NCBI GenBank assembly: GCA_016792565.1
Contig: JAEUMK010000014.1
Coordinates: 1 to 34,967 of the forward strand
DNA from: Alphaproteobacteria bacterium
Lineage (GTDB): Bacteria; Pseudomonadota; Alphaproteobacteria; Micropepsales; Micropepsaceae
Length of the DNA: 34,967 nucleotides
Reading direction: 5' to 3'
Shown: positions 13,560-18,149 of the stretch, one piece after another
Layout of the letters: each line of letters opens with the position of its first letter
Position numbering within the stretch: the stretch's first letter is position 1
The notes under the pieces: generated by a model
What the model was told of the DNA's origin: nothing
What the model saw: the letters and a program-made list of their open reading frames with translations, nothing else
Database searches by the model: none
Translations under genes and position numbers: made by a program

Positions 13560-14552
13560 ATGGCCGCACCGTTCGAACGACGCGAACTGCCCGAGCAGGG
13601 GTTTTTCGGACGCCTGTTCGGCCGGGTGAACCGCGAAGGCATGCTCGCCGAGGTCGAGGCGGCGCTGGCCGACGCCGAGGACTGGGCCGCGGTGCCGCGC
13701 GCCGCCATCGAGGCGATCGAGGCCAAGTACGGCGGCACGCTCCTCGCCGACGCAAGAGACGAGGCCATGGCGCTGGTCTGCCGCGCCGCCGACAGCCTGA
13801 CGCCGCAGCAGATCGTCGAGGGCGGCGTCCCCCGGCTGCGGGCACTGGGCGGGTGTCTCGGCGTCGGTCCGGAAGCCGACGCGGTCGCCCGCGCGCGGGC
13901 CGCGACCGCGCTGGGCGAAGCGGCGCAGATCCTGATCGCCGACGACGATCTCAGCGACGCCGACCGCGCAAGCTTCGCGGCCGCCGCGGAGGCGTGCGGC
14001 ATCGGCAGCGAGGCGATGGTATCGATCCTGACCGGCGCGGTGACGGCGCGCCTGAAGGCGGAAATCGCCGCGGCGATCTCGGATGGCCTGCTGAGCGACG
14101 AGGAAGAGGCGCGCATCGCGGCGCTCGGCCAGGCGCTCGGCGCGCGGCTGGAACTCGACGCGCAGATGCACGACGCGCTGCTGCAGGCGAGGCGCCTGTG
14201 GCTGGTCGAGGAAGGGACCCTGGAGCCGGTCCCGGCGCCGATCGCCCTGCCGCGCACCGAGGCCTGCCTGTTCGCGGGCTACGGCCAGGTCCTGGAGCCG
14301 CGCACGCGCGGCAAGCGCGCCTTCACCCACTCCTACGGCGCCGGCGATATCGTGCTGACCACGAAGCGCATCATCTTCAACGGCGGCGACAAGAACATCG
14401 CGGTCCGCCTCAATACGGTGATCGAATTCCAGGCCTATGACGACGGCGTCGAGGTGCGACGGGCCTCGGGCAAGCCGCTCACCTTCGCCCTGAACGCCCG
14501 CGACGAATGGTTCGCGCGTCTGTTCGCCAGAGCCCGCCGCGACGCCGGCTGA
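13560..14552 (+). CDS. Unknown protein with TerB-like helical region and C-terminal PH-like domain
   Basis: A 330-aa soluble protein. The middle (about 60-220) is acidic and helical, with two TerB-like segments (LIADDDLSDADRASF, ISDGLLSDEEEARIAAL). The C-terminal 90 residues look like a bacterial PH/GRAM-type beta domain: LFAGYGQVLEP, GAGDIVLTTKRIIFNG, IEFQAYDDGVEV, LTFALNARDEWFARLF. Such domains bind membranes or partner proteins. No enzyme motif is seen. The start is taken at ATG 13560; an in-frame start at 13515 would overlap the cupin gene. The following SAHH-like gene begins 83 bp downstream. Confidence 0.7.
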   Translation: MAAPFERRELPEQGFFGRLFGRVNREGMLAEVEAALADAEDWAAVPRAAIEAIEAKYGGTLLADARDEAMALVCRAADSLTPQQIVEGGVPRLRALGGCLGVGPEADAVARARAATALGEAAQILIADDDLSDADRASFAAAAEACGIGSEAMVSILTGAVTARLKAEIAAAISDGLLSDEEEARIAALGQALGARLELDAQMHDALLQARRLWLVEEGTLEPVPAPIALPRTEACLFAGYGQVLEPRTRGKRAFTHSYGAGDIVLTTKRIIFNGGDKNIAVRLNTVIEFQAYDDGVEVRRASGKPLTFALNARDEWFARLFARARRDAG

Positions 14553-14635: not shown

Positions 14636-15775
14636 ATGAGTCTCGGCAGCGAGCACACCAGAGAATATTTTACCCGCGTCGCGGCCGATATCGGCCGGCT
14701 CGATGTCCGCCTGATCGTTCTCAACCACTGCCTGCCGGACCTTCCCGACCTGCTGGACGCGGCGCAGGCGATGGCCCCGATCTCGCTGTTCGTCCCCGTA
14801 CCCTACTCGGTCAATACGCAGGTCCTCGCGCGGCTGATGGAGAAGTTCCCGGTCGAGACGCCGCGCATGGAGACGCTGATCGACCACGAGGCGCTGGCGG
14901 CGATCGTCCGGCCGCATCTCCAGACCGGGCGGACGGCGATCCTGGAGGTCGGCGGCTATTTCGCCCCCGCGCTCGCCCGTCTCAAGGCGGAGTTCGGCGA
15001 GCGCATTGTGGGCTTCGTCGAGGACACCGAAGCCGGACACCGCCGCTATCTGAGGGCCGAGCCGCTGCCCTACACGGTGATGTCGGTGGCCCGCAGCCCG
15101 GTGAAGCAGCAGGAAGACGCGCTGGTCGGACCGGCCTGCGCCTTTTCGGCCGAGCGGCTTCTGAAGTCGCGCGGCATGTATCTTCAGGCCCGGCGCTGCG
15201 TCATCATCGGCTACGGCAAGGTCGGGCGCGGCGCCGCTTCGGCGCTCGCCGGGCGGCACAATTCGGTCACCGTCTACGACATCAACCCGATCCGCCGCAC
15301 GGTCGCCATGGGCGACGGCTTCCGCATCCCGGATCGCGAGTCGGCGCTGTCCACCGCCGATCTCGTCTTCGGCTGCACCGGCGCGACCAGCCTCCACGGC
15401 GACGATTTCCCGCGCCTGAAGAACGGCGCCATCCTCGTCTCGTGCAGCTCCAAGCGACACGAATTCGACCTGACGGCGCTCAATCGCGACTATCAGCGCA
15501 CCGAACTCGCGCCCCACATCGATCGCTACGACCGGGACGGCCACACGCTCTATCTGCTGGCCGGCGGCGCCCCGGTAAACTTCCTCGACGGCGGCGTCGG
15601 CGGCCCGGCGCTGCCGCTGGTGCAGGCCGAGATCCTGATGGCGACGGCGGCGCTGCTGGAGGCGCCGCGCGATTGCCCGGCCATCGCCGAGATCGGCGAG
15701 GATCGCCGCCGCCGCCTCGCCGAGATATGGATCGAGACCTTCTGCGATCCGAAGTCCGGCTCCTATCGCGCATGA
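14636..15775 (+). CDS. S-adenosylhomocysteine hydrolase-like NAD-binding protein, copy 1
   Basis: A 379-aa protein related to SAHH but 50-90 residues shorter. The NAD-binding Rossmann motif GYGKVGRG begins at Gly192, followed by VYDINP, FGCTGATS and SCSSKRHEFD, at the places where SAHH has ExDP, TTGC and NIGHFDxEID. In the catalytic half, Lys157 and Asp161 (SPVKQQEDA) match SAHH Lys186/Asp190. The DDGGDLT motif is instead EVGGYF (104-109), the SEETTTG region is VEDTEAG, the Asn after the Asp is Ala, and the N-terminal substrate motifs (HMT, STQDD) are absent. It probably binds NAD but does not hydrolyse SAH in the normal way. The real role is unknown. Its stop overlaps the next gene's start (ATGA). 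Confidence 0.78.
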   Translation: MSLGSEHTREYFTRVAADIGRLDVRLIVLNHCLPDLPDLLDAAQAMAPISLFVPVPYSVNTQVLARLMEKFPVETPRMETLIDHEALAAIVRPHLQTGRTAILEVGGYFAPALARLKAEFGERIVGFVEDTEAGHRRYLRAEPLPYTVMSVARSPVKQQEDALVGPACAFSAERLLKSRGMYLQARRCVIIGYGKVGRGAASALAGRHNSVTVYDINPIRRTVAMGDGFRIPDRESALSTADLVFGCTGATSLHGDDFPRLKNGAILVSCSSKRHEFDLTALNRDYQRTELAPHIDRYDRDGHTLYLLAGGAPVNFLDGGVGGPALPLVQAEILMATAALLEAPRDCPAIAEIGEDRRRRLAEIWIETFCDPKSGSYRA

Positions 15776-16908
15776 GCCTGATCTCGCCCGCCCGCCGCGC
15801 CTTCTTCGCCGACGTGGCGGCGTGGGTCGGGCGGCAGGCGGACGCCTCGATCGTCATCACCCATCTGCTGCCGCAGCGCGGCGAGTTCCTGGAGGCTCTG
15901 CACCGGATCGCGCCCATCGCGCTTGTCATTCCCGTTCCCTATTCGGTGCATCCGCCGACCCTGGACGAGGTCGCGGCCCGCTATGCGGTGGCGCGTCCCT
16001 CGCTCGACGAGATGCTGGACCCCCAGCACATGAGCGCGCTGATCGCCCCTTACCTGGGCGGCGGGCCGACCGCACTGATCGAGATCGGCGGCTATTTCGC
16101 CTCGGCCCTGGACTTGCTGAAGGCGCGCTACGGCGCGCGCATCCTCGGCTGCCTGGAGGACACGGAAGCCGGACACCGTCGCTACGACGCCGCCGCGCCT
16201 CTGCCCTATCCGGTGGTGTCGGTGGCGCGCAGCCGCCTGAAGCAGGCGGAGGACGCGCTGGTCGGGCCGTCCTGCGTCTTCTCGGCCGAGCGGCTGCTGA
16301 AGGGGCAGGGTCTCTATCTCCACGCCCGCCGCGCGCTGGTGCTGGGTTACGGCAAGGTCGGGCGCGGCGCGGCGCGGGCGCTCGACGGCCGCGACGCGCC
16401 GACCTCGGTCTTCGACGTCAACCCGGTGCAGCGCGCGCTGGCGATGAGCGAGGGCTTCCCCATCCCCGAGCGCGAGGCGGCGCTGGCCAATGCCGACATC
16501 GTCTTCGGCTGCACCGGCACGACGAGCGTCGGACCGGACGAGCTGGGGCTGCTGAAATCCGGCGCGATACTCGTCTCGTGCAGCTCCAAGCGCGTCGAGT
16601 TCGACGTGGCGACGCTTGAGCGCGACTATGCGCGGACGCCGGTCGCGCCGCACATCGACGCCTATGCCAAGGCCGGACAGACGCTCTATCTGCTGGGCGG
16701 CGGCGCGCCGCTCAATTTCCTCGATGGCGGGATCGGCGGCCCGGCGCTGTCGCTGGTCCAGGCCGAGATCATGGCGGCGGTGAAGACGCTGGCCGCCGCG
16801 CCGGCGGGCGGCGCGGTCGCCGAGGTCGATGCGGCGACGCGCCAGCACCTCGCCGCGATGTGGTGCCGCGCCTTCTCCGACCCGGAGACCGGCGCCTATC
16901 GGCTGTAG
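15772..16908 (+). CDS. S-adenosylhomocysteine hydrolase-like NAD-binding protein, copy 2
   Basis: A 378-aa tandem paralogue of the preceding protein, collinear along its whole length (the Rossmann GYGKVGRG also starts at residue 192). Shared blocks include VPYSV, GGYF, EDTEAGHRRY, LVGP-C-FSAERLLK, ILVSCSSKR-EFD, APHID and LVQAEI. The changes in the SAHH active-site motifs are the same (EIGGYF, LEDTEAG, RLKQAEDA). The pair starts with ATGA overlap, which suggests equimolar synthesis and possibly a heteromer. It ends 4 bp before the convergent acyl-CoA dehydrogenase gene. A function cannot be assigned from sequence. Confidence 0.78.
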   Translation: MSLISPARRAFFADVAAWVGRQADASIVITHLLPQRGEFLEALHRIAPIALVIPVPYSVHPPTLDEVAARYAVARPSLDEMLDPQHMSALIAPYLGGGPTALIEIGGYFASALDLLKARYGARILGCLEDTEAGHRRYDAAAPLPYPVVSVARSRLKQAEDALVGPSCVFSAERLLKGQGLYLHARRALVLGYGKVGRGAARALDGRDAPTSVFDVNPVQRALAMSEGFPIPEREAALANADIVFGCTGTTSVGPDELGLLKSGAILVSCSSKRVEFDVATLERDYARTPVAPHIDAYAKAGQTLYLLGGGAPLNFLDGGIGGPALSLVQAEIMAAVKTLAAAPAGGAVAEVDAATRQHLAAMWCRAFSDPETGAYRL

Positions 16909-16912
16909 CTTC

Positions 16913-18067
16913 TCAGAGAGCCCGCGCGATCAGCACCTTCATAATCTCGTTGGTGCCGCCGTAGATCTTCTGCACGCGCGCGTCGCGGTACATCTGGGCG
17001 ATGGGGTATTCGTTCATGTAGCCGTAGCCGCCGAAGAGCTGGAGGCAGGCATCGACGATCTTCACCTGCTCGTCGGTGACCCAGAGCTTGGCCATCGAGG
17101 CGGTGTAGGCGTCGAGCTTGCCGGCGAGCAGCTGGCCGACCGCCCAGTTGCAGAAGACGCGCGCGACGACGGCCTTGGCCTTGCAGTCGGCGAGCACGAA
17201 CTGCGTGTTCTGGAAGTCCATGACCGCCTTGCCGAACGCCTTGCGCTCGCGCGTGTACTTGACCGTCTCCTCGATCGCCCGCTCGATCATCGCGACGCCC
17301 TGGAGGGCGATCTGCAGCCGTTCTGAGGGCAGCTGCTCCATCAGCGAGATGAAGCCGCGACCCTCGCCTTCGCCGAGCACGTTGCTGGCCGGCACGCGCA
17401 CGTCCTCGAAGAACAGCTCCGAGGTGTCCTGGCCGTGCAGGCCGATCTTGTCGAGTTTGCGGCCGCGGCGGAAGCCTTCGACCTCGTCCGTCTCAACGAT
17501 CACCAGCGAGGTGCCCTTGGCGCCGCCGGCCGGATCGGTCTTGGCGACGACGATGATGAGGTTCGCCGTGCCGCCGTTGGTGATGAAGGTCTTGGAACCG
17601 TTGACGACGTAGCCGTTGCCGTCCTTGCGCGCCGTCGTCTTGATCGACTGGAGATCGGAGCCGGTGCCGGGCTCGGTCATGGCGATCGCGCCGATCAGCT
17701 CGCCGGTCGCCAGGCGCGGCAGCCAGCGCTGCTTCTGCTCGCGCGTGCCGTAGTGGAAGATGTAGGGCGCGACGATGGCGTTGTGCAGCGAGGCGCCGAA
17801 GCCGGTGACGCCCTTCTTGCCGAAGACGTCGATCAGCACCGCCTCGTGCGCGAAGCTGCCGCCGCCGCCGCCGAACTCCTCGGGCGCGGACGGGCAGAGC
17901 AGACCCGCCTCGCCGGCTTTCCGCCAGACCTCCCGCGGCACCTGGCCGGCCTCTTCCCAGGCGGCGTTGTGGGGCACCAGCTCCTTGTCGGCGAACTTGG
18001 CGGCGGCGTCCTCGAAGATCAGCAGATCCTCGGTCATCCAGTCGGGGCGTTCGATGGCCTGGCTCAT
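16913..18067 (-). CDS. Acyl-CoA dehydrogenase
   Basis: A 384-aa FAD flavoenzyme of standard family size, catalysing alpha-beta dehydrogenation of acyl-CoA and passing electrons to ETF. Motifs are IAMTEPGTGSDLQSIKT, FITNGGTANLIIVVAKT, RKAFGKAVMDFQ, QLFGGYGYMNEYPIAQMYRDARV and IYGGTNEIMKVLIAR, with the catalytic base Glu374 in GGTNE. The Glu position is that of short/medium-chain type enzymes. The ATG at 18067 is preceded by TGAGGA at good spacing. A longer in-frame start at 18136 adds proline-rich non-family sequence. The chain-length preference is unknown. Confidence 0.93.
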   Translation of the reverse strand: MSQAIERPDWMTEDLLIFEDAAAKFADKELVPHNAAWEEAGQVPREVWRKAGEAGLLCPSAPEEFGGGGGSFAHEAVLIDVFGKKGVTGFGASLHNAIVAPYIFHYGTREQKQRWLPRLATGELIGAIAMTEPGTGSDLQSIKTTARKDGNGYVVNGSKTFITNGGTANLIIVVAKTDPAGGAKGTSLVIVETDEVEGFRRGRKLDKIGLHGQDTSELFFEDVRVPASNVLGEGEGRGFISLMEQLPSERLQIALQGVAMIERAIEETVKYTRERKAFGKAVMDFQNTQFVLADCKAKAVVARVFCNWAVGQLLAGKLDAYTASMAKLWVTDEQVKIVDACLQLFGGYGYMNEYPIAQMYRDARVQKIYGGTNEIMKVLIARAL

Positions 18068-18149
18068 GGTCGGGTCCTCAGATGGAGGGTGGATTGCGGG
18101 CGGCGGGAGCATGTCCGCCCCCGGCGGCGGCATCAAGGGTGCCTTGACG

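Follow-up and report, generated by a model that had tools for sequence, protein, structure and literature searches.

A tandem pair of SAHH-fold proteins predicted to keep the hydroxyl-oxidizing half of the SAH hydrolase active site

In SAH hydrolase (SAHH, AhcY), as read from the mouse structures, Thr157 and Lys186 contact the 3′-hydroxyl and Asp190 the 2′-hydroxyl, Asp131 and His301 serve the chemistry at C4′ and 5′ (pulling the C4′ proton and releasing the 5′ leaving group), and Thr57 and His353 grip the adenine, with His353, Thr57 and Asn191 grouped as residues of adenine binding and closure (PMC4647836). Not all homologues hydrolyse SAH. AgmF is an SAHH homologue that functions as an NAD-dependent nucleoside dehydratase in angustmycin A biosynthesis and does not accept SAH; His56, Asp129, Lys184, Asp188 and His299 are essential to it, and its cluster includes PRTase and phosphatase genes together with one for a LOG-type phosphoribohydrolase (PMC8599513). 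In animals, AHCYL1/IRBIT is a pseudoenzyme that regulates AhcY in mixed oligomers and whose SAHH domain is preceded by a regulatory N-terminal stretch.

Here we compare these systems with a gene pair in the window, by which we mean the whole stretch of 34,967 nucleotides analysed (contig JAEUMK010000014.1 of assembly GCA_016792565.1, Micropepsaceae). The pair belongs to a group of SAHH-like proteins, termed here the GGYF family, whose fold and superfamily are known and for which no characterized family, NCBIfam equivalog or published paper was found, the literature having been searched for SAHH-like proteins and for HD/MFS and NUDIX contexts.

The gene pair and its predicted fold

An initial annotation, made from the DNA letters alone, described two overlapping paralogous SAHH-like genes with GYGKVGRG starting at residue 192 in both, and its coordinates proved exact. 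The features of the pair are as follows.

14636..15775, + strand: SAHH-fold GGYF-family protein, copy 1 (379 aa; sequence, Pfam, AlphaFold, Foldseek, VIA-align)
15772..16908, + strand: SAHH-fold GGYF-family protein, copy 2 (378 aa; sequence, Pfam, AlphaFold)
15772..15775, + strand: ATGA stop/start overlap of copy 1 and copy 2 (sequence)
14726..14728, + strand: His31 codon of copy 1, aligned with human SAHH His55, kept (profile alignments, family table)
14951..14962, + strand: GGYF motif of copy 1, replacing GGDLT; the preceding residue (Asp131 position) is Val
15104..15118, + strand: K157-D161 of copy 1, conserved and equivalent to human K186-D190; N191 is replaced by A162, which follows directly
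15209..15232, + strand: GYGKVGRG NAD-binding loop of copy 1
16087..16098, + strand: GGYF motif of copy 2
16345..16368, + strand: GYGKVGRG NAD-binding loop of copy 2

The two copies are 56% identical over their full length, and the ATGA overlap makes translational coupling between them likely; a promoter and terminator scan found nothing. Pfam identified PF00670, the AdoHcyase NAD domain, in copy 1 (5.5e-19) and copy 2 (1.3e-14), and neither copy matched the PF05221 AdoHcyase domain. Scores against the AhcY equivalog models NF004005 and TIGR00936 were 93.3 and 86.6 bits for copy 1 and 76.6 and 73.0 bits for copy 2, all far below the curated cut-offs of 275 and 497.6 bits, respectively, and no other NCBIfam equivalog fitted. 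The genome does contain a canonical ahcY, as the initial annotation had suggested checking; it lies on a different contig and matches PF05221 at 2.3e-145.

AlphaFold gave confident models of both copies (pLDDT 89.4 for copy 1 and 84.3 for copy 2). The 50 best Foldseek matches to the copy 1 model were exclusively SAHH entries, with E-values down to 8.8e-21, and VIA-align superposed it on SAHH with Z∼37 over 364 residues at ∼22% identity. Since these matches are full length, the model indicates that copy 1 has the whole SAHH architecture, beyond the shared Rossmann core. The alignment with SAHH starts at model residues 1–2, so that, unlike AHCYL/IRBIT, the protein has no N-terminal extension. 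In the model, the first N-terminal strand ends at His31. Viral structures (BFVD) yielded weak Rossmann-type matches only. Both copies end in a DPxxGxYR tail (15740–15775 and 16870–16908) that is found only in the four copies of the genus. This tail resembles that of SAHH, which ends in HYRY and reaches into the neighbouring subunit, but the likeness is too short to argue for homology.

Active-site residues and the wider GGYF family

Residues were mapped to human numbering by profile–profile alignment to AhcY together with a table of 14 GGYF members. Thr157, Lys186, Asn346 and the NAD glycines are kept across the 14, the Asp190 position in 13 of them, and an acidic residue remains at the Glu243 position; Glu156 has changed conservatively to Asp in most. 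His is present at the His55 position in all 13 members that contain that region (His31 of copy 1). Asp131, His301, Asn191, Thr57 and His353 are lost. Val or Ile occupies the Asp131 position (the genus copies included; one diverged member has His) and Ser the His301 position in all 14, while Tyr108, Glu132, Arg153 and Glu160 are new residues that are invariant or nearly so. Hence, judged from these alignments, the family keeps the hydroxyl-oxidizing half of the SAHH site but has lost the elimination half and the adenine grip. In the pair, K157, D161 and the glycine loop (G192-xG-xxG) are all kept. Because the NAD contacts Asn191, Thr158 and Thr159 are changed, NAD binding is likely rather than certain.

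Several points of the initial annotation can be assessed on this basis. The replacement of DDGGDLT by E-V/I-GGYF and of the catalytic Asn by Ala162, with K157 and D161 retained, is evident in the profile alignments and family table, and the motif changes are shared by the two copies and by their orthologues from SO-S41, another strain of the genus. The claimed loss of the N-terminal HMT motif holds for its Met and Thr and not for its His. VPYSV, EDTEAGHRRY and SCSSKR, proposed as private motifs, are private to the clade of four copies only; other family members have PKPKSV, EDTENG and VTSxDDEF instead.

A tree separates the 14 GGYF members from nine AhcY sequences with 100/100 support, although the positions within the group are unsure owing to long branches. 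Beyond the genus, members are rare, occur as single copies and are carried mostly by plasmids or prophages. Distant plasmid-encoded relatives of the pair occur in Streptomycetaceae NBC_01309 (41% identity), Aeromonas caviae (35%), Rhizobium CB3171 (35%), Lactiplantibacillus and Pediococcus (27%) and Staphylococcus epidermidis (22%), with further plasmid members in Agrobacterium and Photobacterium, and more are found on viral-collection contigs from actinomycetes and one lactobacillus. Their common motifs are GGYF, E-x-T-E-N-G, VARSxxKxxED and GYGKVG. A 500-residue Streptomyces form groups with the family yet retains the DD of DDGGY. Annotation pipelines name these relatives adenosylhomocysteinase, a label that the lost residues contradict. 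In phage records, the query proteins P0001 and P0005 gave only partial matches of the canonical ahcY type, and P0008 gave none.

Two further plasmid loci deserve mention. A 369-residue ‘adenosylhomocysteinase’ on a Klebsiella plasmid (L032, 5677–6786) represents another divergent group (CNPTTVQDD, EMGADIT) and adjoins cobT/cobS; its relative on a Yersinia frederiksenii plasmid (L029) is frameshifted. Directly upstream of the Rhizobium CB3171 member (L025, 8630–11754) are two transposase ORFs that match in length and start, with a DDE domain in the one that was searched.

Distribution, locus and gene company

The tandem pair is present in two of the five genomes surveyed from the genus, the window genome and SO-S41, and absent from the other three; across the order it occurs in 2 of 96 genomes surveyed, the other 94 lacking it. 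Most relatives searched carry an ahcY-type match. Among 385 members of the class and 398 of the phylum, only the window genome scored above the ordinary AhcY level. A scan of genome contigs with the single protein P0001 as query found only SO-S41. The SO-S41 orthologues are 80% (copy 1) and 83% (copy 2) identical in amino acid sequence, with dN of 0.13 and 0.125 and dS of 0.63 and 0.69, respectively, giving dN/dS∼0.2 for each. Identity at this level, with dN far below dS, excludes chance or decay and indicates purifying selection on both copies. The view that this is a maintained family is thus borne out, as also by the well-supported separation from AhcY. In the tree, each copy from the window genome groups with its SO-S41 orthologue at full support, and therefore the duplication predates the split of the window genome and SO-S41. 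The pair is adjacent in both carriers in the genus; the question of whether it is always so was raised in the initial annotation, and since relatives elsewhere are single-copy, pairing is not a requirement of the family.

The site is bounded by two marker genes.

13560..14552, + strand: left flank gene (330 aa), conserved in 5/5 genus members
16913..18136, − strand: right flank gene, acyl-CoA dehydrogenase

The left flank protein matches no Pfam or NCBIfam model; by eye it has TerB-like helices and a PH/GRAM-like C-terminus. The flanks abut in one genome of the genus (G001), enclose a GNAT acetyltransferase gene in two (G002 and G004), and enclose the pair in the window genome and SO-S41. With flanks conserved and contents varying, the slot is a site of gene gain or loss. 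Neighbours in the window encode an FMO, a cupin, the TerB-like protein and the acyl-CoA dehydrogenase. No nucleotide-metabolism gene adjoins the pair, no mobile-element gene was found at the site, and the base composition of the pair resembles that of the neighbouring genes. Searches of the literature for Ter-linked nucleoside-metabolite systems found no usable paper.

The relatives keep different company. The actinomycete plasmid and prophage proteins are the closest outside the genus (37–41%) and keep and lose the same residues as the pair, but they are single-copy, lack the DPxxGxYR tail and have a NUDIX gene directly downstream in 4/4 copies, the four contexts representing one lineage; on the NBC_01309 plasmid the NUDIX frame looks frameshifted. 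On Firmicute plasmids, an HD-domain gene immediately precedes the SAHH-like gene, and an MFS transporter gene is also present. A conserved MFS-HD-SAHH-like cassette was seen at three loci read (L026, L027 and L071) and in ∼44 Lactiplantibacillus/Pediococcus plasmid records that likewise count as one lineage, and at the three loci an FRG-domain gene lies beside it. The proteins of this cassette from lactic acid bacteria and S. epidermidis belong to the GGYF family by alignment and tree, but they are 21–27% identical to the pair, occur as single copies and have HD and MFS partners, which are missing beside the pair.

In S. epidermidis the SAHH-like operon resides on 24.9-kb plasmids (CP052964 and NZ_CP121498, our loci L028 and L070) and encodes DUF523, LOG, ParB-like, HpaB-type oxygenase, NUDIX, peptidase, PALP enzyme, PRTase, HD, SAHH-like and MFS proteins. 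It looks like an uncharacterized cluster for a nucleoside or nucleobase analogue. Its gene content differs from that of the tgs 6-thioguanine operon of staphylococci (PMC7994395), from which it is distinct, and a literature search on a 6-N-hydroxyaminopurine cluster found no informative paper. The 500-residue Streptomyces form adjoins methyltransferase, PRTase and HAD phosphatase genes in a plasmid operon (L030, 9491–14867; L031, 9488–14867), followed in L030 by a B12-binding radical SAM gene. The Aeromonas, Rhizobium, Agrobacterium and Photobacterium members, like the window pair, are orphans without such partners. Because NUDIX, HD, PRTase or phosphatase genes adjoin the distant relatives, the substrate of these relatives is probably nucleoside- or nucleotide-like. 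For the window pair itself, a link to nucleosides is hinted at by the family and not proven, since the pair and other lineages lack such neighbours.

Proposed function and alternatives

The residues lost and the model scores together make it very probable that the pair are not SAH hydrolases. Hydrolysis of SAH or of another S-nucleosyl-homocysteine would account for the weak matches to PF00670 and the AhcY models, but it is highly improbable given scores of 93 and 87 bits (copy 1) against cut-offs of 275 and 498, the missing PF05221, the loss of Asp131, His301, Asn191 and Thr57, and the normal ahcY elsewhere in the genome. What is shared with AhcY (TIGR00936, PF05221 plus PF00670) is the full-length fold, the NAD loop and the His55, Thr157, Lys186, Asp190 and Asn346 positions; what sets the pair apart, besides these losses and the scores, is the absence of His353 and the presence of GGYF in place of GGDLT. 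A different NAD-linked reaction, which the initial annotation had also favoured, fits the residues retained and lost.

We propose, with about even confidence, that the pair is an NAD-dependent enzyme that oxidizes or epimerizes the diol of a nucleoside-like metabolite. The proteins would bind the vicinal diol of a nucleoside- or sugar-like metabolite beside NAD and carry out oxidation–reduction there, as a dehydrogenase, an epimerase or an oxidize-then-reduce enzyme, with no elimination of homocysteine; Tyr108, Glu132, Arg153 and Glu160 are candidate new catalytic residues. The substrate may differ from that of the relatives, because the clade departs from other members at the Lys of PKPKS and at TSADDEF and has no nucleotide-metabolism neighbour. 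The ATGA overlap and joint conservation suggest that the two copies may assemble as a hetero-oligomer resembling the SAHH tetramer. The fuller proposal, in which the 3′-oxidation half was kept and the elimination half lost to give an NAD(H) oxidoreductase or epimerase that was duplicated in the genus into an obligate two-gene hetero-oligomer, is tentative and on balance doubtful.

The main rival to a purely redox enzyme is a nucleoside dehydratase or lyase like AgmF, in which NAD oxidizes a hydroxyl, a β-group is eliminated and NADH reduces the product again. AgmF is an SAHH homologue that performs such chemistry in nucleoside biosynthesis without being a SAH hydrolase, it shares the fold and NAD loop, its His56, Lys184 and Asp188 correspond to residues kept in the pair (His55, Lys186 and Asp190), and the LOG, PRTase and phosphatase genes of its cluster resemble the gene company of the S. 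epidermidis relative. However, D129A and H299A abolish AgmF activity (PMC8599513), and both positions (Asp131 and His301 in SAHH) are replaced throughout the family. The loss of two residues without which AgmF is dead weakens this alternative, and we consider it unlikely. The comparison with AgmF is with its published description, and the window pair lies outside any nucleoside biosynthesis cluster, such company being confined to distant relatives.

Another alternative is an AhcY-regulating pseudoenzyme in mixed oligomers like AHCYL1/IRBIT, for which the full SAHH fold with active-site residues lost and the canonical AhcY of the same genome would speak. Across phyla, however, neither the redox residues nor the NAD loop vary, unlike in a pseudoenzyme free to change, and the order's remaining 94 surveyed genomes lack the pair, although most relatives searched carry an ahcY-type match. 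Moreover, plasmids of Staphylococcus, Lactiplantibacillus and Pediococcus carry relatives, and these bacteria rely on Pfs/LuxS to recycle SAH and are not known to have an AhcY to regulate. The regulation of SAH metabolism offered in the initial annotation is accordingly less supported, and on account of the invariant residues and these hosts we judge it improbable. Improbable, too, is that the pair was gained by gene transfer as mobile-element cargo serving defence, immunity or drug resistance, such as the inactivation or export of a toxic nucleoside. Relatives are found on plasmids and on prophage-like contigs near integrases or resolvases, or near IS copies, the site in the genus is either empty or filled by the pair or a GNAT gene, and NUDIX genes of actinomycete elements have an immunity role (PMC3218068). 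Against this, the window site has no mobile-element gene and a neighbour-like base composition, and PADLOC gave only weak scores for the window proteins and weak Rossmann-type matches elsewhere in the family.

If the redox-only reading of the GGYF family is true, the two halves of the SAHH mechanism would be separable, and plasmids of food and skin bacteria would carry an unrecognized NAD-linked step of nucleoside-analogue metabolism.
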